NCBI RefSeq assembly: GCF_019112545.1
Contig: NW_025064882.1
Span: forward strand, 147,575 to 211,574
Direction of reading: 5' to 3'
Length of the DNA: 64,000 nt
DNA from: Guyanagaster necrorhizus
Lineage: Eukaryota; Basidiomycota; Agaricomycetes; Agaricales; Physalacriaceae
The position numbers and the translations under genes were made by a program. The notes beneath the pieces were generated by a model. The model was not told the origin of the DNA, did not search any database, and saw only the letters and a program-made list of their open reading frames with translations. The first letter of the stretch is position 1, and the number at the start of each line of letters is the position of its first letter. Shown here in pieces: positions 5,601 to 63,899 of this stretch.

Positions 5601-5629
5601 TTTGTAAAGCCTAAAAAGGACTGTAGTTC

Positions 5630-10746: not shown

Positions 10747-10802
10747 TCAGTTTTTCAGCACAATTGGGCTTGAGAAAGGGAAGCTAAAAGCTTTGAGCTA
10801 AT

Positions 10803-15528: not shown

Positions 15529-15731
15529 TGTTGCAGACAGGTTATTAGTGCATAGTGAATAATGGCCAGGCTGAATATGATAGTCAATTGCTTAAAGACA
15601 GTTGGCATATATAACTACTATTCATCTGAGTATAATGGTCAATTGCTTAAAGGCAGTTGACCATCAACTTAGGACAAAACTGTCTATGCTTATATAAGGT
15701 TGACATCAGGTACTTGTGTTATCCTGCAACA
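15529..15731 (-). repeat. 5' LTR of the Copia element
   Basis: 203 bp bounded by perfect 8 bp inverted termini TGTTGCAG (15529-15536) and CTGCAACA (15724-15731). The inner side (minus strand GGTTATAGGCTCTG, 15528 downward) is a plausible primer-binding site, as many Copia elements start theirs with GGTTAT or GGTATC-like sequence. The LTR contains two near-identical internal copies of GTCAATTGCTTAAAG (about 15580 and 15630). Confidence 0.8.
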
Positions 15732-16540
15732 TCATATTCACAATAGATGCTAGCAAGGTCAACTATGCCATCTCCTTCCTGGCTAGCACTGCACTCAACT
15801 GGTTTAAATCAGACATTCTTAACTTCAATCCACAAAATCTGCCAGCCTGGCAATTCTCCTATACAGCTTTTTTAGATGAGCTTTATAGCAACTTCAGCCC
15901 TTTTAATGCTATCAGAGATGCCAAAGATGCATTAAAACACTTTCAGATACATGATAGAGATTTGATCATAAAGTACATAGTCCAATTCAATTAGTATGCC
16001 TCATAAATTGGATATAGAGATAACTCCCTCCATCACACTTTTTACTGTGGTCTCTGCACTCACATCAAGGATGACATAGCCTAGCCAAACAATCTCCATA
16101 ACATGTGCTTCCTTGCTCAAGAACTTAATGCTTGCTACTAGACCTGAAAGACTGAAATTGCCTGTAAAAACCAGGATAATAAGACCTCTAACTAATTCTT
16201 CAACCTCAAATCTAAAGGGTTTAACTCTTCTTCCTTGAACATCAGCTCCACACTGAAATCTATCACTCCTAAGCTCTATGCCAACAAGCTAGGCAAAGAC
16301 AGCCATCCTACTTAGGAAAAAAAGACTGCTGATGCCAGAACAACCTTTGCATGTTCTGTGGAGCCAAGCATAAGACTGAGGATTATAACAAACAGAAGGC
16401 TGCAGCCTCTGCCAAGAGTCATGCAGCAGAAGTAGACACTGCCTTCAAAGAATCAGCTCCAATAGAGTCAGAAAACTAGAAAGCAACCCTGTTTTCTCTA
16501 TGCAAATTCAGAGTTGCATTGACTCTATTTACACACTAGA
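15732..16540 (+). pseudogene. gag remnant (copy C)
   Basis: Truncated capsid-type Gag: FTIDASKVNYAISFLASTAL, then FLDELYSNFSPFNAIRDAK, the retrotransposon Gag signature. The N-terminal part is missing, replaced by the Copia LTR. Downstream, about 16000-16540, Gag C-terminal sequence with a poor knuckle is interrupted by stops. Confidence 0.7.
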
Positions 16541-16599
16541 GGTTATTACTCAATACAACATCTCTTTTTAACTATTCCTTCTATCTCTCACTTTCAGCT

Positions 16600-19500
16600 G
16601 AATTACCACCTAGTATGAAATCCAATAGGTCTCTAATTTCTACCATTCTATGCTTTCTTGCTCATATTGATTCTGATTCTAGCCACTGCTTTGTTGACAC
16701 TAAGTATGTAGCTGCCAATGATATTTCTATTAAAACCATCTCTAGTGTGCAACTCTGATTATTCAATGGCTCTGTTAGAAGCTGCATATCTCAAATTGCA
16801 ACTATTCCTATCTGTTTCTCTTTCAGAGACACCTTCTCTATTAACTTCTATGTCACTCATCTGGATTCATCTTACAATTCTGTTCTAGAATACAACTGAC
16901 TCTCCTGCTACAATCCACTGATTGATTGAGCTGAAAACAGTATCACTTTCCACTCAAGTTACCAGAATCCCACTTCAACTAATTCTACAGCCTCCACTAC
17001 ATCCCCAGGACTTTCATACTCACAGAACAACAGTTCATCTCTCTCTGAGCCTTTCAGTCAATTCTGGAACTTTCATGCCCATCAGACTCTATCAATTCAA
17101 CCTCTGGAGCTTTACCTCATTTTAAATCTCCTCTAGATAGCCAGTGGGCTCTGTTCTCATACAAACTCATCTATTCCTATTCTCTCTCAGAGTCTTTTAC
17201 TATGAAAGCACATCCAAAGATCTCCATCATATCTGCTGCTACATTTATCTGAGCCAGTGCAGAAGAAGGTGCTTAGCAGTTCACACTGCAGCCTTTCTTG
17301 CCTAATATTGGAGCCAAAACTGTATCTGTAGAATCAGTGGATCTTTTATCAGTGCCAGTAGAGTATCATGATTTTGCAGATGTCTTCAGTGACACCCTCT
17401 CTAAAAACCTATCTGAATACAGGCTGTACAACCTTAAAATCAACTTTGAGAAAGGAATATCTTCACTGCTTAGACCTATTTATTCTCTCTCAGAATCTGA
17501 ACTCAAGGTCTTATGAGGGTTTATTGATGATAATCTGTGCAATGGGTTCATTACTTTATTCTTCTCTCTACATGGAGCTCCAATCCTGTTTGTTAAAAAG
17601 AAGACCAGTGAACTCTGACTTTGCATTGACTACTGTGACCTAAACAAAATCTTCAAGAAGGATCATTACTCTCTTACTCTCATTTCTGATCTTCTTGACT
17701 CTGCTTGCTTAGTGCATATTTATACTAAGCTTGACCTTCAACATACCTATCATCTCATTTGCATAGCAAAGAGTGATGAATGGAAAATAGCCTTTCAGAC
17801 CTATTACAGTTTCTTCAAATAGTGTGTCATGTCTTTTGGCCTCACAAATGCTTCAGCAGTGTTTTAATACTCTATGAATAATATATTCTCTGATATGCTC
17901 AACATATCAGTAGTAGTCTACCTTGATGACATTTTCATATATTCCAATAATCTGGAAGATCATTAAAAACATGTTTGTAAGATCCTATACAGACTTAGAG
18001 CTAATGGACTCTATTGCAAAGACTTCAAATGCAAATTCAATCAGAACTCTATAGAATACTTAGACTATATTCTATCACCTGAAGGACTTTATATATTTGA
18101 AGAAAAATTCAAGGCTATTGTTGACTGGCCAGTACTATGAAAAGTCAAGAACATTCAATCTTTTCTTGGCTTTGCTAACTTCTACTGCCACTTCATATAC
18201 AAATATAGTGATATTGTTATTCCTCTTACATAACTCACCCACAAAGAAATTCCATGAAAATTTGATGATAAATGCATAGCTGCCTTTAATGAGTTGAAAC
18301 AGATCTTTACACATACTCCCATTCTTACCCACTAAGTCTCCAATTGATGAATAGTGGAGACCAATGTCTCTGACTATGCAATTGCAGCTGTCCTCTCTAT
18401 TTATCTTGAAGATGGTGAAATTCATCTCATCACTTTCTACTCTCAGAATCTCTACAATGCCAAACTCAACTATGACACCCATGACAAAGAGCTTCTAGCT
18501 ATTTTTGAAGCTTTTAAATATTGGCACCACTATCTTAAAGGCTCTGCAGACTCTATTAATGTTATAACAGACTATAAGAACTTTGAATACTTCACCACTA
18601 CCAAGATTCTGACCTGCTGATAGGTTCACTAGTCTAAATACCTATTCCAGTTCAATCTAGTAATCTAGTTCCACCCAGGAAAACTGGATGGAAAACCAGA
18701 TGCACTCACTAAACAATAGAATGTCTACTCTAAAGAAAGAAATAGTCAATATGCTTAAGTCAATCCCTACAATTTCTGACTTGTCTTTATCCAAGAACAA
18801 CTCTCCATATCACTTTATGCAACCTATCTTGAAGGCTCTACTCTCTAAGCTAGTGCCATCATGAACATTGACAAGCTCTATGACAATATCAAAAGAGCAC
18901 AATTCTCTAATCCTACATCCTCTGATGGCCTCTATGAGGCTAAAGCCACTTCTGAATTGTCTCTCTCTCAGTGGTCCATTGATGAATCCAACACCCTTTG
19001 CTTTAAAGGCTGCATCTATGTTTTAGACTCTGATGATCTCCATCTCTATATACTACAAAATAACTATAACTATATCCTGGCAGGCCACTTTGGCCAAAAC
19101 TGAATATTAGAGCTAGTCTGGCAAAATTACATCTGACTAAAGATGTGTGAATATGTTCAACACTATGTTAAGTCCTATACGGTTTGTGGATGCAACAAGA
19201 CACCTAGACACTGCCCTTATAGGTTGCTCAAACCTCTACTGGTTCCCAAATAGCTATGAGATTCTATTTCCATAGACTTCATTGAACAACTACCAGACTT
19301 CAACAGATTTACTACTATTCTAGTAGTCATTGACCAGACTAGCAAGCAAGCCATCTTCATCTCTACTCATGACACTATCAACTCTGTAGAGCTCACCCAA
19401 CTTTTCCTCATCCATGTCTTCTTCAAACATGGAGTATCCAGTTATATCACCTCTGATCATGGCTCTGAATTTGTTTCTCAGTTTACTTACACCCTAGCCA

Positions 19501-20340
19501 TCACCCTTGACATAGAACTCCACCTTACTTTTGGTTACCATCTGGAGACCAACAGACAAACTGAACAGGCAAACCAAACTCTAGAATAATACATCCACAT
19601 CTACTGTTTCTACTAACAGGACAACTGGAACATTCTCTTACCCATTGCTGAGTTTGCCTATAATAATGCCTCTAATGCCTCTACCAGAATATCTTCATTC
19701 TTCACTAACAAGGGTTACCACTCTAACATCACTATTTATTCTGAATGGAACATCACCTCTGCTCAGGCCTGAGACTTTGCAGTTAATCTTGATGAGCTCT
19801 ATCAAGTACTAAAAGACAAAATTTCTGAAGCTCAGTCTTATTATAAGGCTCAAGCAGACAAGCATCAGATTCCAGTGCTCCTGTTCACAGTAGGTGATAA
19901 GATTTATCTTAGTTCCAAATATATCAAAACCACCTTTCCAATCAGAAAATTTTCTGAGAAATACCTTAGTTCTTTCAAAATCATAGTCCAACCTGGTTCT
20001 CACTCTTTCACTCTGAGGCTTCTGCCAGATATCTAGTCTATTCATTCAGTCTTCCATATGTCACAATTAGAACTCATAAAAGAAAACACCATTTCTAATC
20101 AAATCCAACCTCTGCCACCTCCAGTTGAAGTTGATGGAGAAGAATATTTTGAAATAGCCTAAATCCTTGACTCTAAGCTAGACCACCAGTTCCACTGCCT
20201 ACTACTGTACAAAACCCAGTGGATAGGCTACAAAGATACCAATGAAGAATTTGCTTAGTCACTGGCCTCTGAGTTCTCCACTGACAAGTTCATCAAAGAA
20301 TTCCACTATTGATACTCAGGCAAACTAAAACCCTTATCCA
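16600..20340 (+). pseudogene. pol remnant: protease, RT, RNase H, integrase, chromodomain (copy C)
   Basis: In order: protease-like region (about 16620-16920); RT from about 17300, with VVVYLDDIFIYS near 17915 as the YLDD box; RNase H (NVSDYAIAAVLSIYLEDGEI, then AIFEAFKYWHHYLKGS, about 18360-18600); integrase with an HHCC-like region (GHFGQN to VCGCNKTPRH, about 19085-19210) and catalytic residues in SIDFIEQLPD, ITSDHGSEF and NRQTEQANQ (about 19265-19580); and a chromodomain-like end (EEYFEIA near 20140). Stops are scattered throughout. The polyprotein would copy and integrate the element. Confidence 0.82.
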
Positions 20341-20377
20341 AAGTCATCCAAACATTCTCTTCTTGATGCAGCACTAC

Positions 20378-21024: not shown

Positions 21025-22414
21025 TCACAAGAGTCTAGCATCTGACAGACCTGCACTAGAACCAAAGCCTTCCTCTTGTTTCTTCAACTTCTCTATATCC
21101 TTCTCCAGCCTTTTTAACATTACTGTCCACAAGTCCTCCACCTTCTAATTCTTCTTATTCTTGAAGATCAGATGAGCCTCTCTTCACACCTCCAACTCAG
21201 ACTCCAAAAACAATTCTGAAGGAGATAATATATCATCTGATCTGTGGTCATCCTGGAGATCCACTACAGTATCATAGACATCCATCATCTTGTCCACTAA
21301 CTTTTCTATATAATGCTTTAACTTGCATATTAATTTTGAAAATCCATAGAGGCCAGCAGAGACCTCCATGCTTCTGATCACCTCACTTGTAGTGACACCC
21401 TTGTTGAACAAACAGATGGTCTTCTTGATCTTGCAACAAGTGCAAGTCTACTCACAACTAGTGCCTTTGGTTGCTAAGCATGTATAATAATGTACACTAT
21501 CTTGGTGACAGCACATGCAACTTTCTGAAAATAAAACTAAGTCAGAACTAATCAGAAACAAGAAAGCACTTACTTTCACCTCTTAACTCCTTCTCACCCT
21601 CCATCAGCCCCACAATCTCTAACTTCACACTCTTTTTGAGGCTAGCCACTGCCACTGCCTCACTGTCACCCACTATACTATAAGACTTGAACTTCTGCTT
21701 CTCACTCTTTGACACTAGACCTGCAGCCCTTCTCTTTCCCTTTTGCACCCTCTTTCTCCTCTCTAAGGTCTTCTTAGATTCTTTCAACTCATCATCTCTC
21801 TTGGTTCTCTTGTTCTGCTCATTATCAGACTCTGGAGGCATATGACCAGTCACTCTTTTAAAATGAAGACCAGAGCTGAGATTAAACCATTCTATCAGAA
21901 CTTGATACAGCTAAAAATTAATGACCTCTACAGGAGTCATTTGCAATCCACTCTCTATCACCAACTCCTCTGGCAGTGCACCTCTGGTTGCAGCCTCTCT
22001 CTTTATGGCTTCCTTTCAAGCCTCCTCCATCTCCTTCATCTGCTTCTCTGCCACCTGCTAGATCTCCTCTCTCTTCTTTTCCAATTCCTTCTTCTGCTCC
22101 CTTTTCCATGCCTCTCAGGCCACATGGTCCACCTTGGCCTTCTCCTCCCTCTCCAGCTCCCTCTTTCATTTCAAATAAACCTCTATGGCCTCTGCATACT
22201 CATTCTCTACAGTTTGATGTTTCAAATGAAACAATTTCTTGGCCTCTTGAAGACTATTGAGAGTGGATTCCCACATCAAAGGGTCAGGAGTTTTCAAACA
22301 ATGATAGGTGGTGAGGGATGATATCATTGCAAGCTGGAGAAGACAGTGGCTGAAATCTGAAAGACAAAACTCCCACAGGATAAAAAAAAATTTTTTCACT
22401 ATGTGTCTTTCCAC
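21025..22414 (-). pseudogene. Antisense accessory gene of family 2, copy C (decayed)
   Basis: On the strand opposite to C's pol. The N-terminal piece (22166-22414, minus) ends EEAKKLFHLKHQTVENEYAE, homologous to the region after 62640 in copy d. A charged Lys/Glu/Arg-rich part follows (21548-21853 and 21918-22169 minus). The cysteine-rich cluster (about 21390-21510) is damaged: CKIKKT is retained and other cysteines are changed. The C-terminal coiled-coil part is open at 21184-21411 (minus, GVTTSEVIRSMEVSAGLYGF). Several stops separate the pieces. Confidence 0.72.
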
Positions 22415-22452: not shown

Positions 22453-22465
22453 AATGGAGGGATAC
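22453..22465 (+). other. Polypurine tract of copy C
   Basis: AATGGAGGGATAC immediately before the 3' LTR start TGTTA. The equivalent in copy d on the minus strand is AGAGGGGGATAC before TGTTACACG. This is the plus-strand priming site of reverse transcription. It places the accessory gene inside the element, not in flanking DNA. Confidence 0.65.
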
Positions 22466-22962
22466 TGTTACATGCATGCTGCCAGCCTCTGCATCACTTT
22501 GACCAATGATGAATTCAATCACAAGCCTCATCAGACTCTGCCACTTCTTATTACCTACCAATTTTATTTTACCATTATCATTTCACATCTGTATTTCACA
22601 TTCTAGTATCTAGACTCTGAACATGGTAGCAAACAGCTGACACTGGAACCCAATGGACTCTGACTCAGAATTAACTACCAATAGTATATAAACCATGTAC
22701 AAGTATTATAATTACTTAGTTCAAATATCAACTTGGATAGCTATCTACACTTCATGCTCACTTCAGCTCCTCTCTATCTCATCTGTCAGATTCTGCTCCA
22801 AAGAATATTCCCCATCACTTCTCTGACAGAACTCCATTCTGTCAATCCAAATCCTTGGGCCTTGACTCAAGAGTGATGTTGCCAATAGCTTCATTGATGC
22901 CCATGCACTCTGCCAGTCTCTGCATATGCACTCAAGCCCATCTGATTGGCATGTTCCTAACA
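22466..22962 (+). repeat. 3' LTR of copy C
   Basis: 497 bp, TGTTACATGC ... CATGTTCCTAACA, the same family as the LTRs at 20378, 54279, 57402 and 61963. PEX3-related coding sequence starts directly after it; the next 5 bases are GTCTC. Confidence 0.85.
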
Positions 22963-43899: not shown

Positions 43900-46179
43900 A
43901 TGGGCAGGGAGAGTCCACCACCGACAACCCCTCTTGCCCGCGACTATGCCCCGGTGGCTACCACATCCAGCTCGCCTACAAATGAACACGAGAAAAAGCC
44001 CTCGACGTCGACGCGGGCGTCCACCGACTCGGATACCACTGCTACCCATACTTCCGACGAGTTCAATTGGTCTGACGATGACTCGTCTGGCCCCAAGAAC
44101 AGCGATGGCGTTAAGGCCAAGCGTGGACGTGTTATCTATCTTGCCTTCATCAAGCTATCTCGCTGGGTCCGAGTACTCGTTATCGGGATATTAGGGTGTG
44201 CTATCCTTATCACACCCCTGCTTGTCGTCCAGCTGCGCTTCAAGGCCATCCCCAGCAGCGTGCGTATGCAGGTCCACGTCTGGAGTCTGTGGTTCACCGT
44301 GATATGGGCAGCCGCATGTGGGACCTATCTGGTTGTCGATGCCATTCCTCGGCTCATCGTAGGCCTGATAGTTCTCTTTGGAGGACAGCTGGAGCGGTCG
44401 AAAATGCAGATAGAGGTATTTCCTATTTCGTCACGTCGCATCCTTCCTTGACCACACCGCATGTCTAGCTTGCACTCGCCGTTCAGGGCTGGGTCAAACT
44501 AGCACTCGATATTTCCTGGGCCTGGATCGCGCTTTCCGTTATACGCACCTTATACAAGCCAGCTGGCAACTATTGGGTCATTATCAATCGAATTATGCAG
44601 GCCTTATTCTCCGCTGGTATCATAATCCTTGCTGAGAAGGTTTTCCTTCAGTTTGTTGCCATCAATTTCCATCAGAAGGCCCTGGCGGATCGCCTGACGG
44701 AGAACAAGTTGGGTCTTCGCGCGTTGGATAGGCTCTCCAATGCCCAGCCTGTTTTTGGTCTCGGGAATAAGCATCCGAAGAGGCGGGTGCACAAGAGTCC
44801 TGGGACGAGTGTAGATCTGAACAATGCTGCGCCGCGGGGACACAATCAGAACCCAAGCCAGTTGGGACATGGCAATGAGATAGATGCTCACAGGGAGAAG
44901 CTTATAACCGCCACCCGGACTGCTCGGCGACGTCGCAAGCGCAAATCTTTCATGCCCAGCGTCATTGTGGATCAGGTCGGCGGCGCCATTGATCAAGTCG
45001 GTGACGCTATCGGCCAAGTTGCGCTCAAAAACTCCAAATTTAACCGTGAAGGTGATCTGGGGGGACTCCACTCGGCACGAAAGCTCGCCCGCAAGCTCTT
45101 CCGCAGTCTCAATGATGTTGATCCTGATCGAGATTATTTAATTGTTGAAGGTCATAACTCCCATTACGTGTCGGATAATATCTCACTTGGCTCCAGATTT
45201 TTATCCGTATTTCCGGAGTACGCAAGAGGCTACTGTTGCGTTTGCACTCTTTGACAAGGACGGCAATGGTGACATTAGTAAACGGGAGATGCGCGAAGCA
45301 GTTCAGCGCATCTACCGCGAGCGCAAATCGCTCATTGCCTCCCTCAAGGATGCTGGTTCAGCTGTAACCAAACTGGACGCAGTTTTACTATGTTGCTCTC
45401 TTGTCGGTATCATATTCTGCTGTCTCCTCATATTTAACAAATCCAACACGCTCGAATCGCTTGTCCCATTAGCGACCGTTATTCTCGGCTTCTCCTTCGT
45501 TTTTGGAAACGCAGCCGCGACGCTGTTTGCTTCCCTCATCTTCATCTTTTCCACACATGTCTTTGACGTTGGTGATCTAGTTATGATAGATGACCAAGTG
45601 CTCATGGTTCGTGAATTCGGACTGTTCAGTACCACCTTTCGCCGAGTCGACGGGCAAGAGATCATCGCGCCCAACTCCCTTCTTGCGTCCTCCAAGCTGA
45701 TCCACAATCTCCGACGATCGAACAGTATGTGGGAAACTACGAACATCCAGATAGCGTACAACACTCCTTTACCGGTGATTGAAGAGATTCGGACACGTAT
45801 CAAGTCATACGTGTCAGAGAACAACCGTGAATGGAGCGGCATGGATCTCAACATTGACAAGATGGAGTACCAGAATTTGATCCAGCTGATTGTGGCCATG
45901 GAGCACCGACCGAACTGGCAGGATTGGGGCGGGCGGTGGGTGCGAAGGACGAAGTTCATGCGGAACTTGAAAATGATTTTGGAGGACCTGGATGTGAGAT
46001 GGACAATGCCTGTGCAGCCTGTGTTATTTCCTCGGGATGGGCAGCAACATTTACATACTCTACAACATCAGAGCATGTATGGGGGAAGCAGAGAGACACT
46101 TGGTAATGCTGGCAGCTTTCATGGAAGCCAGCATCTGAGTGCGTCTAGTCCAGGAACAAATGCAGATGGAGTGTTCTGA
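43900..46179 (+). CDS. EF-hand MscS-like mechanosensitive channel
   Basis: Eukaryotic MscS-family channel of the fungal Msy1/Msy2 type, which sits in ER or cell-cortical membranes and helps calcium regulation on hypo-osmotic shock. Exons: 43900-44415, 44469-45150, 45197-46179 (stop TGA). Cytosolic Ser/Thr-rich N-terminus, then several membrane spans (VLVIGILGCAILITPLLVV, WFTVIWAAACGTYLVVDAI). A basic loop is followed by an EF-hand FALFDKDGNGDISKREM with the full Asp-x-Asp-x-Asn-x-Asp pattern. The pore-lining and beta domains follow: LVPLATVILGFSFVFGNAA, FDVGDLVMIDDQVLMVREF, DGQEIIAPNSLLASSKLI. About 725 residues. No lesion. The last 40 codons are nearly free of CpG, next to the repeat block. 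Confidence 0.88.
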
Positions 46180-50302: not shown

Positions 50303-53300
50303 TTACCCTTTCCTTAAGATCATCATCCTGATGGCTTAATTTAGAGATAATTCATAATTGTATATGGCTTCATTAGCATTCATCCATTTTTCATTTATCT
50401 ATTGATTAGATTCTGGGCTATAGCTTTTTCAGCTGATCAAATAATCCACTGTTGTTATAATCCCTCCCTCTTTAGCTTTAACCTTGTGTAATTTATAGTT
50501 TAATACTTGTTTAACTTTATAGTGTTTCTTATTGTTGATGAGGTCCAGTGGTGGAGGTAGAGGACACTCCTGATTCAGGAATGCTAGAGCAATATATGAG
50601 AAAAGAAGAGATTTATTAAAAACATTGTGAATCTTCCAGTTGACTAGAAGTCACAGCTTGTATGCAGAGTTGCTAACTTTAGCAAGGACAGAGAGAGGGC
50701 TAGTGCATTTGTCAGAGAGCTTCTGTTTAGGTTGAGAGAGATAAAGGTTGAAGATATCCAATCAGACTTTGTCACTAATGTTATATGTGTGTGTGAGATT
50801 GCAGTGTTTATTATATTATTTCTTTATAGAAGCTGCTGCTTTCTTTAGGGCAACTCATGTTTCAGTATGGATTTTGGACATCTCTTGTGTGAAATCATGA
50901 GAGATGGGTGTAGAGGTGGCTGCTCATTCTATGTGTGATATGTTGGGGTGACATCTGAAGTTGATGAAAAATAGCATCTTCTCAGTGGCAGAATAGACTC
51001 TGTTGTTATATTGAAAGACAGTGAGAGCAAGCCATTCAACTCAGTCATCTTATCAGTAGTTGATAAATATCTGAAGATATTTCTCAATCTTCTGGTTTAT
51101 TCTCTCCATTTGTCCATCTGTCTGTAGGCAATATACCATCAAAGCATTTTGCTGAATATTAAGAAGGCAATAGAGATCATCTAGGAACTTTGACACAAAT
51201 TGTGGTCCTCAATTGAAGATCACAACCTGGGGCATGCTGTACTTGGCATACACTTTATTGCATAAAATTTTTGCTCACTCTTCTAATATCAATTTGGTCA
51301 AACATGTGATCAGGATGATCACTTCTGAGAACTGATCTACAATAATAATGATCATGTTATAGCCATTGCAGTCAGGTAATCCAGTAACCATATCTACCAA
51401 GATGTGAGTTCATGGTGGCTGTGGAACCTCATTTGGATGAAGTGGTGTCACTTATAGTTGTGTGGAAGTCTTTCTCTACTAGCAGATTTCACATCTCTTT
51501 ATGTATCATTCAATGTCTTAGCCCATCTTCAGCCACCAGTATTTCTGCAACACCAACTCTTTGGTTTTGTGATCCCCAGATGGCCTGCAGTCATATGGTC
51601 ATAGCACATAGTGATGATTTCACCACAAAGTTGTTGGTCTTGTGAGATATAGATCCATCTATCATAGCAGATCAATCCTTTCTCCTTTGTCATTTCACAC
51701 TCATGGTTAAGTGATAAGGCTATATATTGGTCTCATTTGTGATTGTCTCTTGTTGCACTCTTGATCTTTTCATAGATCTCCTCCTCTATTGGCATTATCA
51801 TCACTTGGAAGTGTTTGAGCTTCAGTAATATCACTCTCTTATTGTTGCTACTTCCTTAGTCATGGTCTGCCTGTCAACTGAGCAGATCAGCCTTTTTATT
51901 GGCTGTCCTGACCTTATAGTGTAGTGTGTACTTGTATTGAGAGAGTTTAGTGATCCACCAGGTCTGTCAGTGATTAAGCTTTTGAGAGGAATGGAAATAT
52001 CAGAGGTTTTAATGATCTGTCCAGACTTTGAAGGTCTGGATGATGCCAATCAGATAATAATGCCATTTCTCCAGGATGAGTATTATTGCAAGTAGTTTCT
52101 TGTCATATATTTCATAGTTTCATTCAGTTATTATGAGGGCTTTAGAGAGGAAGGCCACCAGCTGCCACCTCTCATCTTGTTTCTGAGAAAGTATAGCACC
52201 TATGACCTCCTCATTTGAGTTGGCCTTGACTCAGAACTTCTCCTCCTATATTAAGATAGCAAGGATAACATCTTTGGTGAAATATTATTTTAGATCATTG
52301 AATGCAGCCTGTTGGAAAGGTCCCCAATTTCATGAGGTGTTGCCAGTTAGTTGAGTCATCAGTCATACAATCTTGCTGTAGTCCTGAATGAATTGCCAGT
52401 AAAAGTTGGTGAACTCCAGAAAGGATTGAAGTTTTTTTTTTTTCATTAAGGTCAGCCACTCAGTTATCTCAGCTACTTTAATAGGGTCTATCTGGATATT
52501 TCCTTTACTGATAATGACTCCTAAGTACTCTGTCTTTAGGACTTTAAATTTGTATTTCTCAGCTTTAAGAAAAAGTTTATATTTTCTCATCAGTTCAAGA
52601 ACCTGTCAAATCAATCACCAGTGCTCCTTCTGGTTTCTGGACATGATGAGTATGTCATCCAAATATATTGTCACCTTTTCAGTGGTGATGAGGTTCTTAA
52701 AAATATCATTCATTATCCATTAGAAGGTGGCAGAAGAGTTAGTGAGCCTAAAAAACATTACTATAAGCTTGAACAGTCTCTAGTTGGTTCAGAATGCTGC
52801 TTTCCATTCATCACCTTTTCTGATTTGTATGTTGTTGTACTCCCACCTAACATTCAGCTTAGTGTAATATTTCACCTCTTGTAGCTTGTCCATCAACTCA
52901 GAGATTAACAGAAGTGGATAATAGTTTTTGATCATCATCTCATTCAGTTTTCTATAGTTTTGTACTAGTTAGAGTTTGCCATTCTCCTTTTTGACAAAGA
53001 AGAATGGTGAGACCACCAGAGACTTTGATGGTTGAATCTATCTGCTGGAGAGATTTTTTTTTAGAAAATGATCAAGTTTCTGTTGTTTCTGATTGCTGAG
53101 GGAATAAGTTTTGCAATTGAGGTTGGCATTAGCATTGGAGATCAGCTCAATTGCATGATCCCAGAGTTTGAGTTCTGGCAACTTGTTGAAACTTTCTTTG
53201 TTGAACAGATCACAATAATCCTGAGCCTATTCTGGGACTATTTTCTCAAATGTTTTTTCCTCCTTTTCAGTATTGGTTTTAGCCACCAAGTCATTGGCAT

Positions 53301-54278: not shown

Positions 54279-54775
54279 TGTTAAGAACATGCCAATTGAG
54301 TGAGCTTGAGTGCATGTGCAGAGTATGGCAGAGTGCATGGGTGTTGATGAAGCTATTGGCAATATCACCCTTGAGTTAGAGCCCAAGGATCTAGATGGAC
54401 AGAATGGAGTTCCATCAGAAAAGTGAACCAGAATATCCTTCAGAGCAGAATCTGACAGACAAGGTAGAGAGGAGTTGAGTGAGTGCAAAGTGTAGATGGC
54501 TTATCCAAGTTGATATTCAAACTGAGTAGTTATGATGATGTACATAGCTTTATATACTAATAGTAGCTAATTCTGAGTTGGATTCCAGTGGGTTTCAGTG
54601 TCAGTATTCACTACCGAGTTTGGGGTCTAGATATTACAATGTGAAATACAGATGTGAAATGATAATGGTGAAATGAAATTAGTAGGTAATAGGAAGCAGC
54701 TAGAGTTCAGTGGATAGCATGATTGGATTTATGGTTGGTTGAGGTGACATGGAGGCCAGTGGCATGCATGTAACA
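54279..54775 (-). repeat. 3' LTR of family-2 copy b
   Basis: 497 bp, from TGTTAAGAACATGCC to CATGTAACA as read on the plus strand. The element's sense strand is minus; the polypurine tract is at 54776-54788 (plus strand GTATCTCCCCCTT). It lies directly in the gag linker of copy E. Confidence 0.85.
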
Positions 54776-54836
54776 GTATCTCCCCCTTAGTGTTTTTACC
54801 CTCAAGAGTGCAGATCCCAATGGCCAGTGGAGCCAC

Positions 54837-56217
54837 ATGGAAGATTGTTGATGGTCATGGGAGTTTTGCAGCTTGAACTGAAACCACTATCTTTGCTTAT
54901 GTCATCACTCACACACTCCTGAGCCTCTGGTGAGAGGATCCACCCCTGATAACCCTGAAGAGGCTAAGGAATTATTTTGTCTGGAATGGTGAATCATGGA
55001 GAAAGAATATGCAGAGGCTGTGGAGAGCCATTTGGAATGGCAAAGAGAGTGGAAGTGGAAGGAAAGGGCTTGAGCAGACCATGTGGCTCAGGAGTCATGG
55101 AAAAAGAAGCAGAGGAAGGAATTGGAGAGGAAGAAGGAGGAGGTTTGGCAGGCTGTGAAGAGGTGGATGAAAGAGGCAGAGGAGGCATTGAGAGAGGTGG
55201 CTCAGAGGGAAGCTGAGGAGAGAGAGGCCATAGAGGCAGCAGCAAGAGTTGAGGCTGAGGAGGTAGAGTTGGAGCAGATGGTTATGGAGGATGGGTTGCA
55301 AATGACCTCTGCAGAGGCTGTTGATTTCTGGCTGCATCAAGTGTTGGCAGAATGGTTTGGTTCTGGCCCTGGTCTTCACTTCAAGAAGGTGACTTGCCAT
55401 GCACCTCCAGAGTCTGATGATGAGCAGGACAAGGAGACTGAGGGGGATGATGAGTCTGAGGAATCTGAGGGGACTCTGGAGAGGAGGAAGAGAGTGTAGA
55501 AAGGAAAGAGAAGGGCAGCAGATCCAGCAGAGAAGGGCTATAAACACAAGTTCAGATCGAGAAGCATAGTGGATGGCAGTGGGATAGAGGTGGTTGTTAG
55601 CCCCAAAAAGCAGGCAAAGTTGAAAGTAGCAGGATCAGCAAAGGGCAAAGAATTGTTGGATGGTGAAAGTAAGTGTCTTGGTTTTCTTTCATGGCTTAAC
55701 TTAGCTTTTGTTTTCAGGGAGTTGTGTGTATTATCATCAAGATGGTGCACAGTGTTATGCATGACTGGTAACCAAAGGCACCAGTCAAGGGCAGACTTGC
55801 TTTCACTGCAAGATCAAGAAAACTGCCTGTTCATTCAACAAGAGCATCACTGTGAGTGAGGTGATCAGTAGTGTGGAGGTCTCCACTGGTCTTCACCAAC
55901 TTTCAAAATTGATATGCAAGTTGATGCATTGCATAGATGAGTTGGTGGATGAGGTGGCAGATGTTCATGGTACTGTGGCAGGTCTTCAAGATGACTACAG
56001 TTCCAATGATATGTCATCTCCTTCAGAGCTGTTTTTGGAGTCCAAGGTGGAGGCCTGAAAGAAGGCTCAACTGATTTTTAAGGATGAGAGGGATCAGGAG
56101 GTGGAGGATCTTCAGGAGGCAATATTGAAGGGGCTGGACAAGGATATAGAGGAGTTGAAGGAGCAGAGGGAGAGTTCAGGTTCCAGTGTGAGCCTGTTAG
56201 ATTCTGCTTTTTTGTAA
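54837..56217 (+). pseudogene. Antisense accessory gene of family 2, copy b (decayed)
   Basis: Opposite strand to b's pol. The long open piece 55083-55499 is a charged helix (KKKQRKELERKKEEVWQ, ALREVAQREAEEREAIEAAA) followed by FGSGPGLHFKKVTCH and the acidic ESDDEQDKETEGDDESEES. Stops at 55497-55499 (TAG) and earlier break it. The Cys cluster is near 55720-55840 and the C-terminal coil at 55852-56058 (ISSVEVSTGLHQLSKLIC). Stop TAA 56215-56217 matches the end of copy d. The 51-57 bp intron-like stretch with GTAAGTGTC is conserved. Confidence 0.75.
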
Positions 56218-57401
56218 AATATTTTGTATGAAATATATATAGAAAAGAGTGTTGGATGTTGGTAGTGGAGAAAAAAAATGTGAATACAAGATTTTGATTT
56301 TGAAAGTGTAAAAGAAGTGATTGAAATAGTAGTAATTAGTGGTTTAGAATTGAAATGGTAAGGTGGGATGCTAATGGTGTCCAGAGTAGCATTGTATTAG
56401 GAATGGAATGTTTGAATGACTTTAGACAAGAGTCCTGGTTTGTCTGAGTATCAGTGGTGGAATTCTTCAATGAATTCATTGGCGAAGAACTCGGAGGCTG
56501 GTAACTAAGCAAATTCTTCATTGGTATCTTCATATTCTAGCCACTAGATTTTGTACAGCAGTGGGCAGCAGAACTGGTAGTCCAGTTTAGAGTTGAGGAT
56601 TTGGGCTATTTCAAAATGTTCTTCTCTATTGACTTCAACTGAAGGTGATGGTGGTTGGATTCGGTTAGAAATGGTGTTTTCTTCTATGGGTTCTAATTGT
56701 GACATATGGAAGATGAGGTGAATGGACTGAAGATCTGACAGAAGCCTCAGAGTAAAGAAGTGGGTATCAGGTTGGACTATGACTTTAAAAGAACCAAGGT
56801 ATTTTTCCAAAAATTTTTTAGTCAGGCAGGTGGTTTTGATATGTTTGGAACTGAGGTAGACTTTGTCATCTACTATAAATAGGGGTGCTGGAATCTGGTG
56901 CTTGTCTGCTTGGGTCTTGTAGTGAGACTGAGCTTTAGAAATTTCATCCTTCAGTAATTGATGAAGTTCATCAAGGTTGACTGTGAAATCTCAGACCCAG
57001 ATAGAGGTGATGTCTCTTTCAGGATAAACAGTGATGTTGGAGTGGTAACTCTTGTTAGCAAAAAATGAGGAAATTCTAGTGGATGTGTTAGAGGCATTAT
57101 TGTAGGCAAATTCAGCAATGAGTAAGAGGGTGTCCCAGTTGTCCTGCTGATAGAAGCAGTAGATATAGATGTATTGTTTCAGAGTTTGGTTTGCTTGTTC
57201 AGTTTGTCTGTTGGCCTTTGGATGATAACCAGAGGTAAGGTGGAGTTCTATGTTAAGAGCTATGGCTAAGATGCAAGTAAATTGGGAGATGAATTCAGAG
57301 CTGTGGTCAGATGTGATGTGACTAGGTACTTCATGTTTAGAGAATATATGGATAAGGAAAAGTTGGATGAGCTCCATGAAGTTAATGGTGTCATGAGTGG
57401 A
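56218..57401 (-). pseudogene. Integrase/chromodomain remnant of copy b
   Basis: Only the 3' part of pol is visible: chromodomain-like HFEIAQILNSKL (about 56600), the conserved HFFTLRLLSDLQSIHLIFHM (about 56700), then integrase (SSEFISQFTCILAIALNI, YHPKANRQTEQANQTLKQY). At 57402 it is interrupted by the 3' LTR of copy c; the matching point in copy c's own integrase is near 60546. Stops are present. Confidence 0.8.
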
Positions 57402-57899
57402 TGTTAGGAATGTGCCAATCGAGTGGGCTTGAGTGCACACATGGAGTCTGACAGAGTGTGTGGGCATCGATGAAGCTATTGGCAATGTCACTCTTGAGTT
57501 GAAGCTCAAGGATCTGGGTGGACAGAACAGAGCTCCATCAGAGAAGTGAACAGGAATATCCTTTAGAGCAGAATCTGATAGATGTGGTAGGAAGGAGTTG
57601 AAGTGAGTGCAAAGTGTAGATAGCTTATCCAAGTTGATATTTAAACTGAGTCATTATAGTGATATACATGGCTTTATATACTAATAGTAGCTAATTCTGA
57701 GTTGGATTCCAGTGGGTTTCAGTGTCAGTATTTGCTACCGAGTTTGAGGTCTAGATATTACAATGTGAAATATGGATGTAAAATGATAATGATGAAATGA
57801 AATTAGTAGGTAATAGGAAGCAGCTAGAGTCCAGTGGGTAGCATGATTGGATTTGTGGTTGATTGAGGTGACATAGAGGCTAGTGGCATGTGTGTAACA
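57402..57899 (-). repeat. 3' LTR of family-2 copy c
   Basis: 498 bp, TGTTAGGAATGTGCC ... GTGTAACA on the plus strand; polypurine tract at 57900-57914 (TTTCCCCCTTAG on plus). Inserted in copy b's integrase. Confidence 0.85.
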
Positions 57900-57960
57900 G
57901 TATTTCCCCCTTAGCACTCTTGCCCTCAAGAGCACAGATCCTGATGGCTGATGGGGCCAC

Positions 57961-59358
57961 ATGGAAGATTGTTGATGGCTATGGGAGTTTTGTATCTTGA
58001 TCTGAAACTACCATCATTGCCTATATTGTTGCTCGCTATATATTGTTGCTCATGCACTCTCAAGCCTCTGGTGAGGGGATCCACCCCCAATGGCTCTGAA
58101 GAGGCCAAGAAATTGTTTTATTTAGAATGGAAGACTGTGGAAGAAGAATATGCAAAGGCCATAAAGAGTCATTTGGAATAGCAAAGGGAGCAAGAGCAGG
58201 AGGAAAAGGTCTGGGCAGACCATGTAGCCTGGAAGATGTAGAAAAAGGAGCAGAAGGAGGAATTAGAGAGGAAGAGGGAGGAGGTTCAGCAAGCCATGGA
58301 GAGGCAGGCTAAGGAGACAGAGGAGGCATTGAGAGAGGTGGCTTGGAGGGAGGCTGAAGAGAGAGAGACCATGAAGGTAGCAGTGAGGGCTGAGGCTGAG
58401 AAGGTAGAGCTGGAGGGGATGGTTATAGAGGATGGGTTGCAAATGACCTCTGCAGAGGCTGTTGATTTCTAGCTGCATCAAGTGTTGGCAGAATGGTATA
58501 GTCCTGGCCCTGGTCTTTGCTTCAAGAAGGTGACTCACTATATGCCTCTGGAGTCCAATAATGAGCAGATGAAGGGGACTGAGGGGGATGATGAGTCTGA
58601 GGAATCTGAGGGGACTCTGGAGAGGAGGAAGAGAGTGCAGAAGAGGAAGAGGAGGACAGCAGATCTGACAGAGAAGAGCTATAAACACAAGTTCAGGTTG
58701 AGGAGCATAGTGGATGACAGTGGGATAGAGGTGATCATTAGCCCCAAAAAGCAGGTGAAGTTGGAAGTGGCAGGACCAGCAAAGGGCAAAGAATTATTGG
58801 ATGGTGAAAGTAAGTGTCTTAGTTTTCTTTCATGGCTTAACTTAGCTTTTGGTTTCAGAGAGTTGTGTGTGCTGTTGTCAAGATGGTGCACAATGTTATA
58901 CATGACTGGTAACTGAAGGCACTAGTCGAAGGCAGACTTGCTCTCACTGCAAGATCAAGAAAACTGCCTGTTTGTTCAACAAGAGCATCACTGTGAGTGA
59001 GGTGATCAGCAGTGTGGAGGTCTCCACCAGTCTCCACCAGCTTTTGAAGTTAATACACAAGTTGATGCATCATGTGGATGAGTTGGCAGATGAGGTGGCA
59101 GATAGTTGTGGTACTGTAACAGGTTTTCAGGATGATTATGGGTCAGATGATATATTGTCTTCTTTGGAGTTGTTTTCAGAGTCTGAGTTGGAGGTCTGAA
59201 AGAAAGCTTGTCTGCTTTTCAGAGATGAGAAGAATCAGGAGGTGGAAGATCTGTGGGAGGCAATGTTGAAGGGACTAGATGAGGATATAGAGGAGTTGAA
59301 GAGGTAGGGGGAGAGTTCTGGTTCTGATGCAGGTCTGTTGGATTCTGCTTCCTTGTAG
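57961..59358 (+). pseudogene. Antisense accessory gene of family 2, copy c (decayed)
   Basis: Third copy of the accessory gene. The start region matches copy d (PLVRGSTPNGSEEAKKLF, about 58066-58120) but TAG codons follow (for example near 58178). Open piece 58482-58916 carries LCFKKVTHYMPLESNNEQ, then RKRVQKRKRRTADLTEKSY. The C-terminal coil is at 58972-59199. Stop TAG 59356-59358. CpG scarce. Confidence 0.75.
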
Positions 59359-61962
59359 AGCTTTTGTATGAAATGTATATAGAAAAGGCATTGGATGTTG
59401 ATAGTGGAGAAGAAAAAAAATGTAGATATAAGTTTTTGACTTATGAAAGTGTAAAAGAGGTGATTGAAATGGTATTTGGTTGGTAGAATTGAAATAGTAG
59501 AGTGAGGCTCTGGTGGCATCTGGAGTAGTCTTGTATCAAGAATGGAATGATTGAGTGACTTTGGATAAGGGTCCTGGTTTGTCTGGATATTGATGGTGGA
59601 ATTCTTTAATAAATTTATCAGTGGAGAACTTAGAGGCTGGTAACCAAGGAAACTCTTCATTAGTACCTTTATAGTCTAGCCACTGGATTTTGTATAGCAG
59701 TGGGCAGTGGACAGTGGAACCAGTGGTCCAGTTTAGAGTTGAGGATTTGAGCTATTTCAAAATGTTCTTCTTCATTGACTTCAACTAGAGGTGGTAGTGG
59801 TTGGATTTGGTTAGAAATGGTGTTTTCTTCTATGGGTTCCAATTGTAACACATTGAAGATGGGGTGAATGGACTGAAGATCTGATAGAAGCCTCAGAGTA
59901 AAAGAGTGGGTACCAGATTGGGCTATGATTTCAAAAGGGCCAAGGTATTTCTCCAAAAATTTTCTGGTCAGACAGGTGGTTTTGATATGTTTGGAGCTGA
60001 GGTAGACCTTGTCCCCCACTGTGAATGGAGGTGTCAGGATCTGATGCTTATCTGCTTGGATCTTATAGCAAGACTGAGCTTCAAAAATTTCATTCTTCAG
60101 TAATTGATGGAGTTCATCCAGATCAACTGAAGTATCAGGCCTGGGCAGAGGTGATGTCCATTTCAGAGTGAACAGTGATGTTGGAGTGGTAATCCTTGTT
60201 AGCAAAAAATGGGGAAATTCTAGTGGATGCATTAGAGGTGTTGTTGTAGGCAAATTCAGCAATGGGTAGGAGAATGTCTCAGTTGTCCTGTTGATAGGAG
60301 CAGTAGATGTGGATATATTGTTCCAGAGTTTAGTTTGCTCATTCAGTTTGTCTGTTGGCCTCCAGATGATAACCAGAGATAAGGTGGAGTTTCATGTCAA
60401 GAGTTATGGCTAAGGCACAAGTAAATTGAGAGATAAATTTGGAGCCACAGTCAGATGTGATATGACTGGATACCTCATGTTTGAAGAATACATGGATAAG
60501 AAAAAGTTGGGTGAGCTCTATAGAGTTGATAGTGTCATGAGTGGAAATGAAGATGGCTTGCTTGCTAGCTCAGTCTATGACTACTAAGATAGTGGTGAAT
60601 CCATTAGAGTCTGGTAGTTGTTCAATGAAGTCCATAGAAATGAAATCCTATAGTCATTCAGAAACTGGCAGAGGTTTGAGTAACCTATAGGGGTGGTGTC
60701 TGGGTGCCTTATTATGCCCACAAACTGTGCAGGACTTAACATAGTGTCAGACATATTCATGTATCTTTGGCTAGGTGTAGTTCTGCTGGACTAGTTCTAA
60801 TGTCTGGTTTTGACCAAAGTGACCTGCCAAGATATAGTCATGATTGTTCTGTAGTATATGGAGATGGAGATCATTAGAGTCTGGGACATAGATGTGGCCT
60901 TCGAAGTGAAGGATATTGGATTCATCAATAGACCATTGAGAGAGAGAGGATTCAGAAGTGGCCTTAGCCTGGTGGAGGCCATCAGAGGATATAGCTTCAG
61001 AGGATTGTGCTTATCTGATATCGGTGTAGAGTTTGTCAATATCCATGATGGCACTAGCCTGTAGAGTGGAGCCTTCAAGATAAGTTGCTCAGAGTGATGC
61101 AGAGAGTTGTTCTTAGATGAACACAGGTCGGAAATTGTGGGGGTTGATTTGAGCATATTGGCTATCCCCCTCTTTAGGGTAGACATCCCATCATCTAGTG
61201 AGCATATCTGGTTTCTCACCAAGTTTTCCAGAGCAGAACTGGATTACTAGATTGAACTGAGATAGGTATTTGGACCAGTGGATCTGTCAGCAGATTAGAA
61301 TCTTAGTGGTGGCAAAGTATTCAAGGTTCTTGTAGTCTGTTATGACATCAATGGAGTCTGTGGAGCCTTCAAGGTAGTGCTGCCAATGTTTAAAGGCTTC
61401 AAAAATGGCTAGAAGCTTTTTGTCATAGATGTCATAGTTGAGTTTGGCATTATAGAGACTCTGAGAGCAGAAAGCGATGGGGTGAATTTTGCCATCTTCA
61501 AGATAGATGGAGAGGATAGCTGCAATTGCATAGTCAGAGGTATCAGTTTTCACCACTATCTTTTGATCAAGAACCCAGTGGGTAAAGAGGGGGGCATATG
61601 TAAAGGCCTGTTTCAACTCATTGAAGGTGGCCAAGCATTTGTCATCAAATTTCTATGGAGTTCCCTTGGGGGTGAGTCGTGTAAGGGGAAGAATGATATC
61701 ACTATATTTGTGTATGAAGCAACAGTAGAAGTTGGCAAAGCCAAGAAAAGATTAGATGTCTTTGACTTTTTGCAGCACCAGCTAGTCAACAATGGCCTTG
61801 ACTTTTTCTTCAGACATGCAAAGTCCTTCAGGTGATAGGATGTAGCCTAGATATTCCATGGAATCTCAGTTGAATTTGCATTTGGAACCTTTGCAATAGA
61901 GTCTATTAGCTCTAAGCCTGCATAGGACCTCACAAACATGTTTCTAGTGATCTTCTGGATTG
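59359..61962 (-). pseudogene. pol remnant of copy c: RT end, RNase H, integrase, chromodomain
   Basis: On the minus strand from 61962 down: RT tail, RNase H (ALFTHWVLDQKIVVKTDTSD, then LYNAKLNYDIYDKKLLAIF, 61287-61634), integrase (about 60800-59800) and the C-terminal region 59669-60262 (PDTSVDLDELHQLLKNEI, GDKVYLSSKHIKTTCLTR, EEHFEIAQILNSKLDHWF). Right edge 61962 is exactly the point of insertion of copy d's LTR, so the N-terminal RT, protease and gag lie beyond the window. Confidence 0.82.
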
Positions 61963-62454
61963 TGTTAGGAACGTGCCAATCGAGTGGGCTTGAGTGCATG
62001 CATGGAGTCCGGCGGAGTGCGTGGGCATTGATGAAGCTATTGGCAACGTCACCCTTGAGTTGGAGCCCAAGGATCTGGATGGACAGAACGGAGTTCTGTC
62101 AGAGAAGTGAACAGGAGTATTCTTCAGAGCGGAATCTGACGGACGAGATAGGGAGGAGTGAGTACGAAGTGTAGATGGCTTATCCAAGTTGATATTCGAA
62201 CTGAGTAGCTACAATGATGTACATGGCTTTATATACTAATGGTAGCTAATTCCGAGTCGGGTTCCATTGGGTTCCGGTGTCGGTATTTGTTACCGAGTTC
62301 GGAGTCTAGATATTACAATGTGAAATACGGATGTGAAATGATACTGGTGAAATGAAATTAGTAGGTAATGGGAAGCAGTCGGAGTCTGGTGGGTGGTGTG
62401 ATTGGATTCGCGGTTGGTTGAGGTGACACGGAGGCCGGCGGCATGCGTGTAACA
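61963..62454 (-). repeat. 3' LTR of family-2 copy d (young)
   Basis: 492 bp, TGTTAGGAACGTGCC ... GCGTGTAACA on plus. Rich in CpG where the LTRs of C, b and c carry TG or CA, so the least mutated copy. On the element's sense strand (minus) a TATATAAAG box lies near 62230. Confidence 0.85.
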
Positions 62455-62468
62455 GTATCCCCCTCTTA
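62455..62468 (-). other. Polypurine tract of copy d
   Basis: CTAAGAGGGGGATAC on the minus strand, touching the LTR boundary. It proves that the accessory gene (62516-63899) is internal to the retrotransposon. Confidence 0.7.
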
Positions 62469-62606
62469 GCGTTCTTGCCCTCAAGAGCGCAGATCCCGAT
62501 GGCCGGTGGGGCCACATGGAAGATTGTTGGTGGCCGTGGGAGTTTTTTCAGCTTGATCTGAAACCACCATCTTTGCCTATATCGTCGCTCACGCACTCCC
62601 GAGCCT

Positions 62607-63899
62607 TTGGTGAGGGGATCCACCCCCGATGGCCCTGAAGAGGCCAAGGAATTGTTTCGTCTGGAATGGCGAACCACGGAGGAAGAATATGCGGAGGCCG
62701 TGGAGAGCCATTTGGAATGGCAAGGGGAGCGGGAGCGGGAGGAAAGAGTCTGGGCAGACCGTGTGGCCCGGGAGGCACAGAAAAAGGAGCAGAAGGAGGA
62801 GTTGGAGAGGAAGAGGGAGGAGGTTCGGCAGGCCACGGAGAGGCAGGCTAAGGAGGCAGAGGAGGCGTTGAAAGAGGCAGCTCGGAGGGAAGCTGAGGAG
62901 AGGGAGGCCGCGGAGTCAGCGGCGAGGGCTGAGGCTGAGGAGGTAGAGCCAGAGGGAATGGTTGCGGAGGATGGGTTGCAAATGACCCCCGCGGAGGCCG
63001 TTGATTTTCGGCTGCATCGAGTGTTGGCAGAACGGTTTGGTTCTGGCCCCGGTCTTCGCTTCAAGAAGGTGACTCGCCCTATGCCTCCGGAATCCGATGA
63101 TGAACAGGACAAGGGGACTGAGGGGGATGATGAGTCCGAGGAATCTGAGGGGACTCTGGAGAGGAGGAAGAGGGTGTGGGAGGGGAAGAGAAGGGCAGCG
63201 GGTCCGGTGGAGAAAGGCCGTAAACGCAAGTTCAGGTCGAGGAGCATAGTGGATGGCAGTGGGACAGAGGTGGTTGTTAGCCCCAAAAAGCGGGCAAAGT
63301 TGGAAGTGGCGGGACTGGCGGGGGGCGAGGAATTGTTAGATGGTGAAAGTAAGTGTCTTGGTTTTCTTTCATGGCTCAACTTAGCTTTTTTGTTTTTAGA
63401 GAGTTGTGTGCGCTGTCATCAAGATGGTGCCCAGTGTTATGCACGCCTGGTAACCAAAGGCGCTGGTCGAGGGCGGACTTGCTCTCGCTGCAAGATCAAG
63501 AAAACCGCCTGTTCGTTCAACAAGGAGGTCACCGCGAGCAAGGTGATCAGCAGTGTGAAGGTCTCCACCGGTCTCCACCAACTTTCACAATTGATACGCA
63601 AGTTGATGCATCGCATGGATGAGTTGGCAGACGAGGTGGCGGATGTTCGCGATACTGTGGCAGGTCTTCAAGACAACTACAGTTCCGATGATATGTCGTC
63701 TCCTTCGGAGCTGTTTTCGGAGTCCGAGGTGGAGGCCTGGAAGAAGGCCCGACTGATTTTCAAGGATGAGAGGGATCAGGAGGTGGAGGATCTTCAGGAG
63801 GCGATGTTGAAGAGGCTGGACGAGGATATAGAGGAGTTGAAGGAGCAGGGGGAGAGTTTGGGTTCCGGTGCGGGCCCATCGGGTTCCGCTTCTTTGTAA
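62607..63899 (+). CDS. Antisense accessory protein of family-2 Gypsy: coiled coil plus Zn2Cys6-like cluster
   Basis: Open for 430 codons on the strand opposite to the element's pol. Residues about 1-130: Glu/Lys/Arg/Ala-rich coiled coil (RLEWRTTEEEYAEAVESH, EALKEAARREAEEREAAE). Then DFRLHRVLAERFGSGPGL and an acidic block (ESDDEQDKGTEGDDESEES); basic nuclear-type motifs (GKRRAAGPVEKGRKRKFRS and SPKKRAKLE); the cluster CVRCHQDGAQC, a 14-residue spacer, CSRCKIKKTAC; a C-terminal coil (LIRKLMHRMDELADEVAD) and an acidic end. An in-frame 51-bp GT-AG intron is likely at 63349-63399 (GTAAGT to TTTTTAG); splicing brings ...DGEK directly to SCVRCHQ. No early ATG is in this frame; the start is unresolved: an upstream ATG at 62516 is in another frame, with a TTTTTTCAG acceptor-like site at 62554-62562. 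Probably a nuclear DNA-binding factor by its parts; role unknown. Four copies occur here. Confidence 0.75.
   Translation: MVRGSTPDGPEEAKELFRLEWRTTEEEYAEAVESHLEWQGEREREERVWADRVAREAQKKEQKEELERKREEVRQATERQAKEAEEALKEAARREAEEREAAESAARAEAEEVEPEGMVAEDGLQMTPAEAVDFRLHRVLAERFGSGPGLRFKKVTRPMPPESDDEQDKGTEGDDESEESEGTLERRKRVWEGKRRAAGPVEKGRKRKFRSRSIVDGSGTEVVVSPKKRAKLEVAGLAGGEELLDGESKCLGFLSWLNLAFLFLESCVRCHQDGAQCYARLVTKGAGRGRTCSRCKIKKTACSFNKEVTASKVISSVKVSTGLHQLSQLIRKLMHRMDELADEVADVRDTVAGLQDNYSSDDMSSPSELFSESEVEAWKKARLIFKDERDQEVEDLQEAMLKRLDEDIEELKEQGESLGSGAGPSGSASL

Follow-up and report, generated by a model that had tools for sequence, protein, structure and literature searches.

A probable antisense accessory gene, with a six-cysteine cluster and a predicted intron, in a Ty3/Gypsy retrotransposon family of Guyanagaster necrorhizus

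A 64,000-nucleotide stretch of the basidiomycete Guyanagaster necrorhizus (RefSeq assembly GCF_019112545.1, contig NW_025064882.1, positions 147,575 to 211,574 of the forward strand; hereafter the window, with coordinates counted from its first nucleotide) carries four copies of one gene within Ty3/Gypsy-type long terminal repeat (LTR) retrotransposons. Numbered 1-4 from left to right, all four lie antisense to pol, between its end and an LTR, as an initial annotation of the sequence had claimed; for copy 4, which is also locus L009 of the genome-wide set described below, the C-terminal end of pol lies just past the window edge, on the strand opposite to the gene. Judging from the sequences compared here, a chromovirus-like Ty3/Gypsy lineage carries the gene as an integral accessory; the gene is best explained neither as a frame open by chance nor as a single capture event. 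The surroundings of copy 4 are as follows.

61963..62454, minus strand: 3' LTR of the copy-4 element, 492 bp; the pol-sense strand is minus, with a sense TATA box at LTR position 220
62252..62302, no strand assigned: candidate regulatory block in the U3 region, three everted CCG-N3/4-CGG sites upstream of the sense TATA box (a post hoc pattern)
about 62457..62469, minus strand: polypurine tract adjoining the 3' LTR, from the sequence
62543..62551, plus strand: T-rich box ending in CAG in the leader, from the alignment (20/20 copies, small length differences)
62579..62581, plus strand: family start-codon position (M of MSS...), ATA in copy 4, with a 17-bp deletion just downstream
62586..63348, plus strand: exon 1, with a charged coiled coil, an acidic block and basic motifs
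63349..63399, plus strand: predicted spliceosomal intron (GTAAGT ... TTTTTAG)
63400..63899, plus strand: exon 2, with the six-cysteine cluster, a C-terminal coiled coil and a TAA stop
63405..63512, plus strand: CX2CX6C-x14-CX2CX6C cluster

The cysteine spacing proposed in the initial annotation is exact in copy 4. Position 62455, at which the feature annotated there begins, is the edge of the LTR and not the gene start; the start codon of the family falls at 62579. The frame is split just before the cluster by a predicted intron of 49-56 nt, and copy 4 appears continuous only because its intron happens to be 51 nt long and free of stops. The donor GTAAGT stands at the same place in all 20 close copies fetched from the genome (copy 4 included) and the acceptor AG in 19 of them (it is altered in L016), while the differences in intron length fall within its T-rich tract. 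This length is not a multiple of three in 9/20 close copies, and in L010, L011 and L013, three of the five fully open copies, the exon-2 frame is kept only with the intron removed. A donor at the same place is also found in window copies 1-4, L029-L032 and L037, and a second family in this genome (L033, L034 and L036) has an intron-like stretch there with less perfect sites.

The frame is open from ATG to stop in 5/20 close copies (L010-L013 and L018). These five contain two in-frame ATGs, and I took the second, which begins MSS..., as the start because it aligned with Met1 of two homologous Armillaria proteins, P0002 and P0004 (the five homologues are labelled P0002-P0006 here); P0005 and P0006 also begin MSSS, and the gene model of P0003 begins elsewhere. 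A frame-breaking 17-bp deletion at the gene start is common, occurring in eight of the 20 (L009, L015, L020, L021, L023, L024, L026 and L027). Copy 4 has this deletion and lacks the family start codon, so that its 5' end is broken although both exons are open. The eight copies share one deletion and are nevertheless numerous, and have perhaps spread with protein supplied by other copies.

The genome searched comprises 53.3 Mb in 109 contigs. With copy-4 DNA as query, the best 40 of 268 candidates were scored (88-100% identity); with copy-1 DNA, the best 40 of 260 (71-78% for the main matches other than copy 1 itself); and with the protein P0002, the best 78 of 297, which gave 87 matches. Merging 157 of the 171 resulting match rows, the other 14 of which adjoin listed places, leaves at least 111 genome places where the gene, a related copy or a fragment occurs, a rough floor that includes some weak matches.

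The gag-pol pieces match the Pfam families Retrotrans_gag/Ty3_capsid, RVP_2, RVT_1, RT_RNaseH, Integrase_H2C2, rve and SH3_Tf2-1, and on separate pieces these give the Gypsy order of gag, protease, reverse transcriptase, RNase H and integrase. A Chromo match at the C-terminus of pol was found in L010 (E 7e-4, 19.9 bits) and L022 (E 0.049), in both cases below the Pfam cut-off of 25.1 bits, and none was found for L015 at E 0.01. Because the match stays below the cut-off, chromovirus is a likely assignment and not a proven one. The LTRs of the element are 492 bp long with TG..CA ends, and its length is near 8 kb (7.8-8.2 kb, plus one element of 5.6 kb). A second full LTR was present at the far end in 16/20 close copies, and none in the fetched stretch for the other four. 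The 5-bp repeats flanking these 16 elements, compared by eye, were identical in 12, differed by one base in two and were mismatched in two.

Among the best 40 of 267 pol-end matches, 38 are followed within 1 kb by the gene on the opposite strand, so that most family copies show the layout called aORF-3R in plant elements; the pol ends without one among the matches listed are at C69:44096 and C4:1796387. An LTR lies 151-171 bp from the aligned gene start in 20/20 close copies. In the copies examined the gene occurs in LTR context, and, as the fixed transversions below indicate, its frame has evolved under constraint rather than neutrally; the outcomes named in the initial annotation as speaking against its reading were not seen there. 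One decayed piece of a relative, at L036, has no pol or LTR match.

The other three window copies, all of which have stops in frame, and their elements are arranged as follows. An additional LTR (20376-20876) lies between pol and gene in the copy-1 element, and the pol of the copy-3 element is interrupted by the LTR of the copy-4 element.

15731..20354, plus strand: gag-pol remains of the copy-1 element
21025..22414, minus strand: gene copy 1, decayed with stops; it represents a subfamily of its own and shares about 70% exon identity with copy 4
22464..22962, plus strand: 3' LTR of the copy-1 element
54279..54777, minus strand: LTR adjoining copy 2
54837..56217, plus strand: gene copy 2, decayed with stops
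56400..57401, minus strand: C-terminal part of pol next to copy 2, cut by the next LTR
57402..57901, minus strand: LTR adjoining copy 3
57961..59358, plus strand: gene copy 3, decayed with stops
59539..61962, minus strand: part of the copy-3 pol, disrupted by the copy-4 LTR

Decay in the family has a marked direction. The 16 LTR pairs (elements in L010-L028) show 510 differences of the C-to-T type against 13 transversions, with C-to-T rates of 23% at CpG, 7.6% at CpA, 2.4% at CpC and 0.7% at CpT, a pattern that points to cytosine methylation followed by deamination, or to a process like repeat-induced point mutation. Because this decay dominates the transitions, I tested selection on transversions alone, comparing the 20 close copies with five diverged ones (L029-L032 and window copy 1) that are 66-74% identical to them in the exons. 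Of 40 transversions fixed between the groups, 19 are synonymous, 19 nonsynonymous and two of the stop class, with 21 at third positions; the count is approximate, one copy having served as codon background. The synonymous share, 19/40, compares with an expected 17.8% (P = 1.5e-5). Transversions private to single diverged copies were also enriched in synonymous changes (20/63, P = 0.005), an excess that I read as partly older changes. Within the close copies, the 14 classified transversions (4 synonymous and 3 nonsynonymous shared, 2 and 5 single) are too few to test.

Two alternatives meet this evidence directly. That the gene is a chance open frame on the antisense strand might be argued from the 15/20 close copies that have no full open frame with a start, but the codon-position pattern, the splice sites and the presence of homologues in another genus refute it, leaving it next to no probability. 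The other alternative is that the antisense RNA itself matters, forming double-stranded RNA with the genomic RNA and feeding RNA silencing or methylation as a kind of self-limitation. The heavy C-to-T decay of the LTR pairs, highest at CpG, makes the family look like a silencing target, and a plant review suggests the possibility (PMC7264820). An RNA role, however, needs neither coding constraint nor cysteines conserved in Armillaria nor conserved splice sites, and I consider it improbable. The gene is almost certainly, from these patterns, a coding accessory gene.

Homologues outside G. necrorhizus were found in Armillaria. A search with the full-length protein returned three Armillaria proteins (best E 4.7e-19), and a profile search returned five, three of them already in the profile: one from A. 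solidipes, three from A. borealis and one from A. ostoyae. A protein search with the C-terminal part alone found no homologue, and a scan of IMG/VR found no relative. Identity to L013 is 31-36% for the first three (from the alignment) and 27 and 31% for the other two (from BLASTP). P0002 is colinear from Met1 onwards, through the coiled coil, basic stretch, cluster and second helical region, and the Armillaria proteins carry an extra C-terminal extension. Four of the five keep the six cysteines with an 8-residue linker; the gene model of P0005 skips the cluster. Compared with P0002, C-to-T changes and their reverse number 49/13 (P0003), 39/22, 25/19 (P0005, weak) and 50/24, and because the changes run mostly in the C-to-T direction these Armillaria copies resemble silenced repeats.

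The search of the G. necrorhizus genome with P0002 revealed places more Armillaria-like than the window family, up to 55-59% identical. Five places of this second family were fetched (L033-L036 and L038), all with stops. At L034 and L038 the gene piece is antisense and follows closely on the end of pol. At L033 gene and nearest pol piece share a strand, and an LTR fragment abuts the gene; L035 is a nested tangle. The decayed Armillaria-like piece of L036 (1-5001, on C30) has, within a few kb, an open frame resembling by eye an RNase III/Dicer-type protein, and the piece is possibly a relic outside an element. A sixth place, L037, belongs to a sister subfamily of the window family and has the gene antisense beside pol. 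On the basis of the two clear places, L034 and L038, the antisense layout may be older than the divergence of the two families.

These relatives bear on whether a host gene was captured once and has since been carried as a passenger. Databases give Zn(2)-C6 names to Armillaria homologues (for three of the five, the legible part of the name reads Zn(2)-C6 fungal-type), and the L036 piece stands near host-like open frames without a pol or LTR match. Against this, no intact free-standing homologue was found in the genome among the best 78 of 297 candidates, the fetched second-family places all having stops, and the gene has been kept under selection in most pol-bearing copies. Furthermore, three of the five proteins come from the single species A. 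borealis, and the copies drift from P0002 mostly in the C-to-T direction, as silenced repeats do (49/13 in P0003, only 25/19 in P0005). Simple capture is therefore quite improbable.

The predicted protein has about 428 residues from MSS onwards. Besides the six-cysteine cluster it comprises two coiled-coil regions, basic stretches and an acidic block. Fungal Zn2Cys6 proteins (PF00172) typically have basic residues in one half of the cluster and a coiled coil following it. The present protein shares with them the two CX2CX6C halves, which are found in the family and in four of the five Armillaria homologues, as well as basic residues in one half and a coiled coil after the cluster; it differs in having no Pfam profile match, in that it is the second half that is basic, and in its linker of 14 residues (8 in Armillaria). 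A Pfam scan of L013 gave no family, including no TRP28, SMC or bZIP match, and P0002-P0004 had no PF00172 match at a maximum E of 1. A second structural model, which is weak (mean predicted local distance difference test score 51.1), places two short strands (P0002 residues ~249-258) between the cysteine pairs. Sequence searches of the PDB, one using the C-terminal region and one the cluster from Armillaria, yielded nothing significant, the best match of the latter being a ribosomal zinc-ribbon protein (E 0.43). From that model and this match the cluster may be ribbon-like rather than Gal4-like. The product is probably a nuclear nucleic-acid-binding protein.

Such a protein could have a target close by. 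Zn2Cys6 proteins favour CGG triplets, and young LTRs contain everted CCG-N3/4-CGG sites at sense positions 153, 172 and 195, upstream of the TATA box at 220. All three are present in L009 (the window LTR) and L011, and two each in L013, L010_A and L015_B. Shuffling gave P values for this pattern of 0.002, 0.02, 0.0115 and 0.0105 (LTRs of L011, L013, L010_A and L015_B, the window LTR being excluded), and 0.003-0.26 for wider site patterns in the four shuffled LTRs. When diverged LTRs (window copy 1, L029, L031, L032, L033, L035 and L038) were aligned, the 195 site was readable with transitions only in 7/7, by eye and without a null model, and the 153 and 172 sites were less readable, again by eye. 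In the leader, shortly before the start codon, a TTTTTTCAG box is present in 20/20 copies with small length differences, and its region could mark the start of the antisense transcript.

I therefore propose a mechanism in outline. An antisense transcript would begin in the U3 region of the 3' LTR or in the leader and be spliced once, yielding the predicted protein of ~428 residues. Since the gene is antisense to the genomic RNA, the intron would not be spliceable from that RNA and would survive each round of transposition. The protein would be nuclear, dimeric and DNA-binding and would activate or repress the LTR promoter of its own element, perhaps by way of the CCG/CGG sites that precede the sense TATA box. 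The U3 next to the gene would then lie between the two promoters, and one protein could balance the synthesis of genomic RNA against its own expression.

The same features would suit a different role, in which the protein serves the retrotransposition cycle instead of transcription, for example by importing the pre-integration complex into the nucleus or tethering it there, by acting as an RNA chaperone or by influencing the choice of integration site, the antisense position merely separating its expression from that of gag-pol. An adaptor that binds nucleic acids would account for the coiled coil, the basic motifs and the metal cluster as well as a transcription factor would, the gene is kept at 38/40 pol ends (best 40 of 267), and the plant review considers that antisense genes may take part in retrotransposition itself (PMC7264820). 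On the other side, the element already has, for targeting, an integrase that carries an SH3 (Tf2-1-like) domain and matches the chromodomain weakly, and the candidate sites upstream of the TATA box favour, weakly, a role at the promoter. I regard this alternative as unlikely, if quite conceivable.

A number of observations count against the regulator that I propose. Only a quarter of the close copies, the five listed above, still have an intact frame that includes a start codon; three of the five second-family places did not show the antisense layout; and in L037 the accessory protein, at 67-71% identity to the family, is less conserved than the pol pieces, at 79-84%. The site pattern was chosen after the sequence had been read. 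As for the cluster, L013 has no match to Pfam Zn_clus (PF00172) even at E 5, none of the 54 listed PF00172 places in the genome, a number expected for a fungus, coincides by eye with an element copy, and the linker between the two halves differs from that in Armillaria. The exon-2 model and the second model show long helices and resolve the cluster poorly, with low confidence over it, and a fold search with the former found no match. The claim of the initial annotation that the family carries its own DNA- or chromatin-binding protein thus stands in part: the gene is element-carried, antisense, coding and under selection, with features like those of DNA-binding proteins, but its Zn2Cys6 identity was unconfirmed by Pfam and fold searches. 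Regulation of its own LTR is a tentative assignment that I rate a little below an even chance, and the best overall reading of these sequences, an element-borne, spliced, antisense nuclear DNA-binding regulator, I hold to be about evenly balanced.

Other parts of the window contain remains of another Gypsy lineage or lineages (3182-6377, 10799-11855 and 50489-53248), whose pol pieces are ~27-47% identical to the studied family, and ordinary host genes with SPIN90/Ldb17-like and mechanosensitive channel domains (31716-32918 and 45289-46179).

The source study for brtn, an antisense gene of another fungal element, is reportedly that of Zhao et al. (2011). Reports of antisense genes located between pol and the 3' LTR go back to the 1990s (literature cited in PMC7264820). 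The gene brtn occupies this position in the Boty-like elements of Botrytis cinerea (PMC7264820; brtn of Boty is also cited in PMC8365987), which are Gypsy elements with a CHROMO domain (PMC4227169). By description, it resembles the present case in being an additional gene of a fungal Gypsy element, antisense and located after pol and before the 3' LTR, in another host. The plant aORF-3R genes include gene23 of Grande, those of RIRE2 and PvRetro13, and ORF4 (TRP28) of Retand (PMC7264820, PMC11963269). The antisense product of Grande is reported to be nuclear and its gene to have its own promoter (PMC7264820), and the Retand proteins contain a predicted DNA-binding TRP28 (PMC11963269) in an element described as a non-chromovirus (PMC7264820, PMC11963269). 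The present gene differs from these in its six-cysteine cluster and predicted intron and in having no TRP28 or SMC match.

A functional analogy can also be drawn with HBZ and APH-2 of the human T-cell leukaemia viruses HTLV-1 and HTLV-2, where a spliced antisense transcript from the 3' LTR encodes a nuclear repressor of Tax-activated LTR transcription (PMC3185765). The mechanism proposed here would work by the same logic, a spliced antisense product regulating the LTR, whereas HBZ belongs to a retrovirus, is a bZIP protein without a metal cluster, and has no sequence relation that I could see to this gene. By this analogy the gene would be an independent fungal counterpart of HBZ in a lineage of mushroom-type chromoviruses, an antisense zinc-cluster factor acting on CCG-N3/4-CGG sites in U3 as a feedback switch between genomic RNA and quiescence, whose intron would persist across transposition solely through its reversed orientation, a proposal that is doubtful at present.

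Antisense genes between pol and the 3' LTR are thus already known from plant elements and from brtn of Boty. As far as literature searches show, three things are new: a product with a cysteine cluster, a predicted intron that transposition leaves in place, and the presence of the gene in two element families of one genome; searches on basidiomycetes, Armillaria or the zinc cluster found no such gene in titles and the beginnings of abstracts, subscription papers being mostly outside their scope. The family adds a fungal example in which the protein has a metal cluster, the LTR offers candidate target sites and Armillaria has relatives. Its predicted intron would serve as a built-in marker of antisense transcription and splicing, and the family makes the question of whether such antisense genes regulate their own element directly testable.
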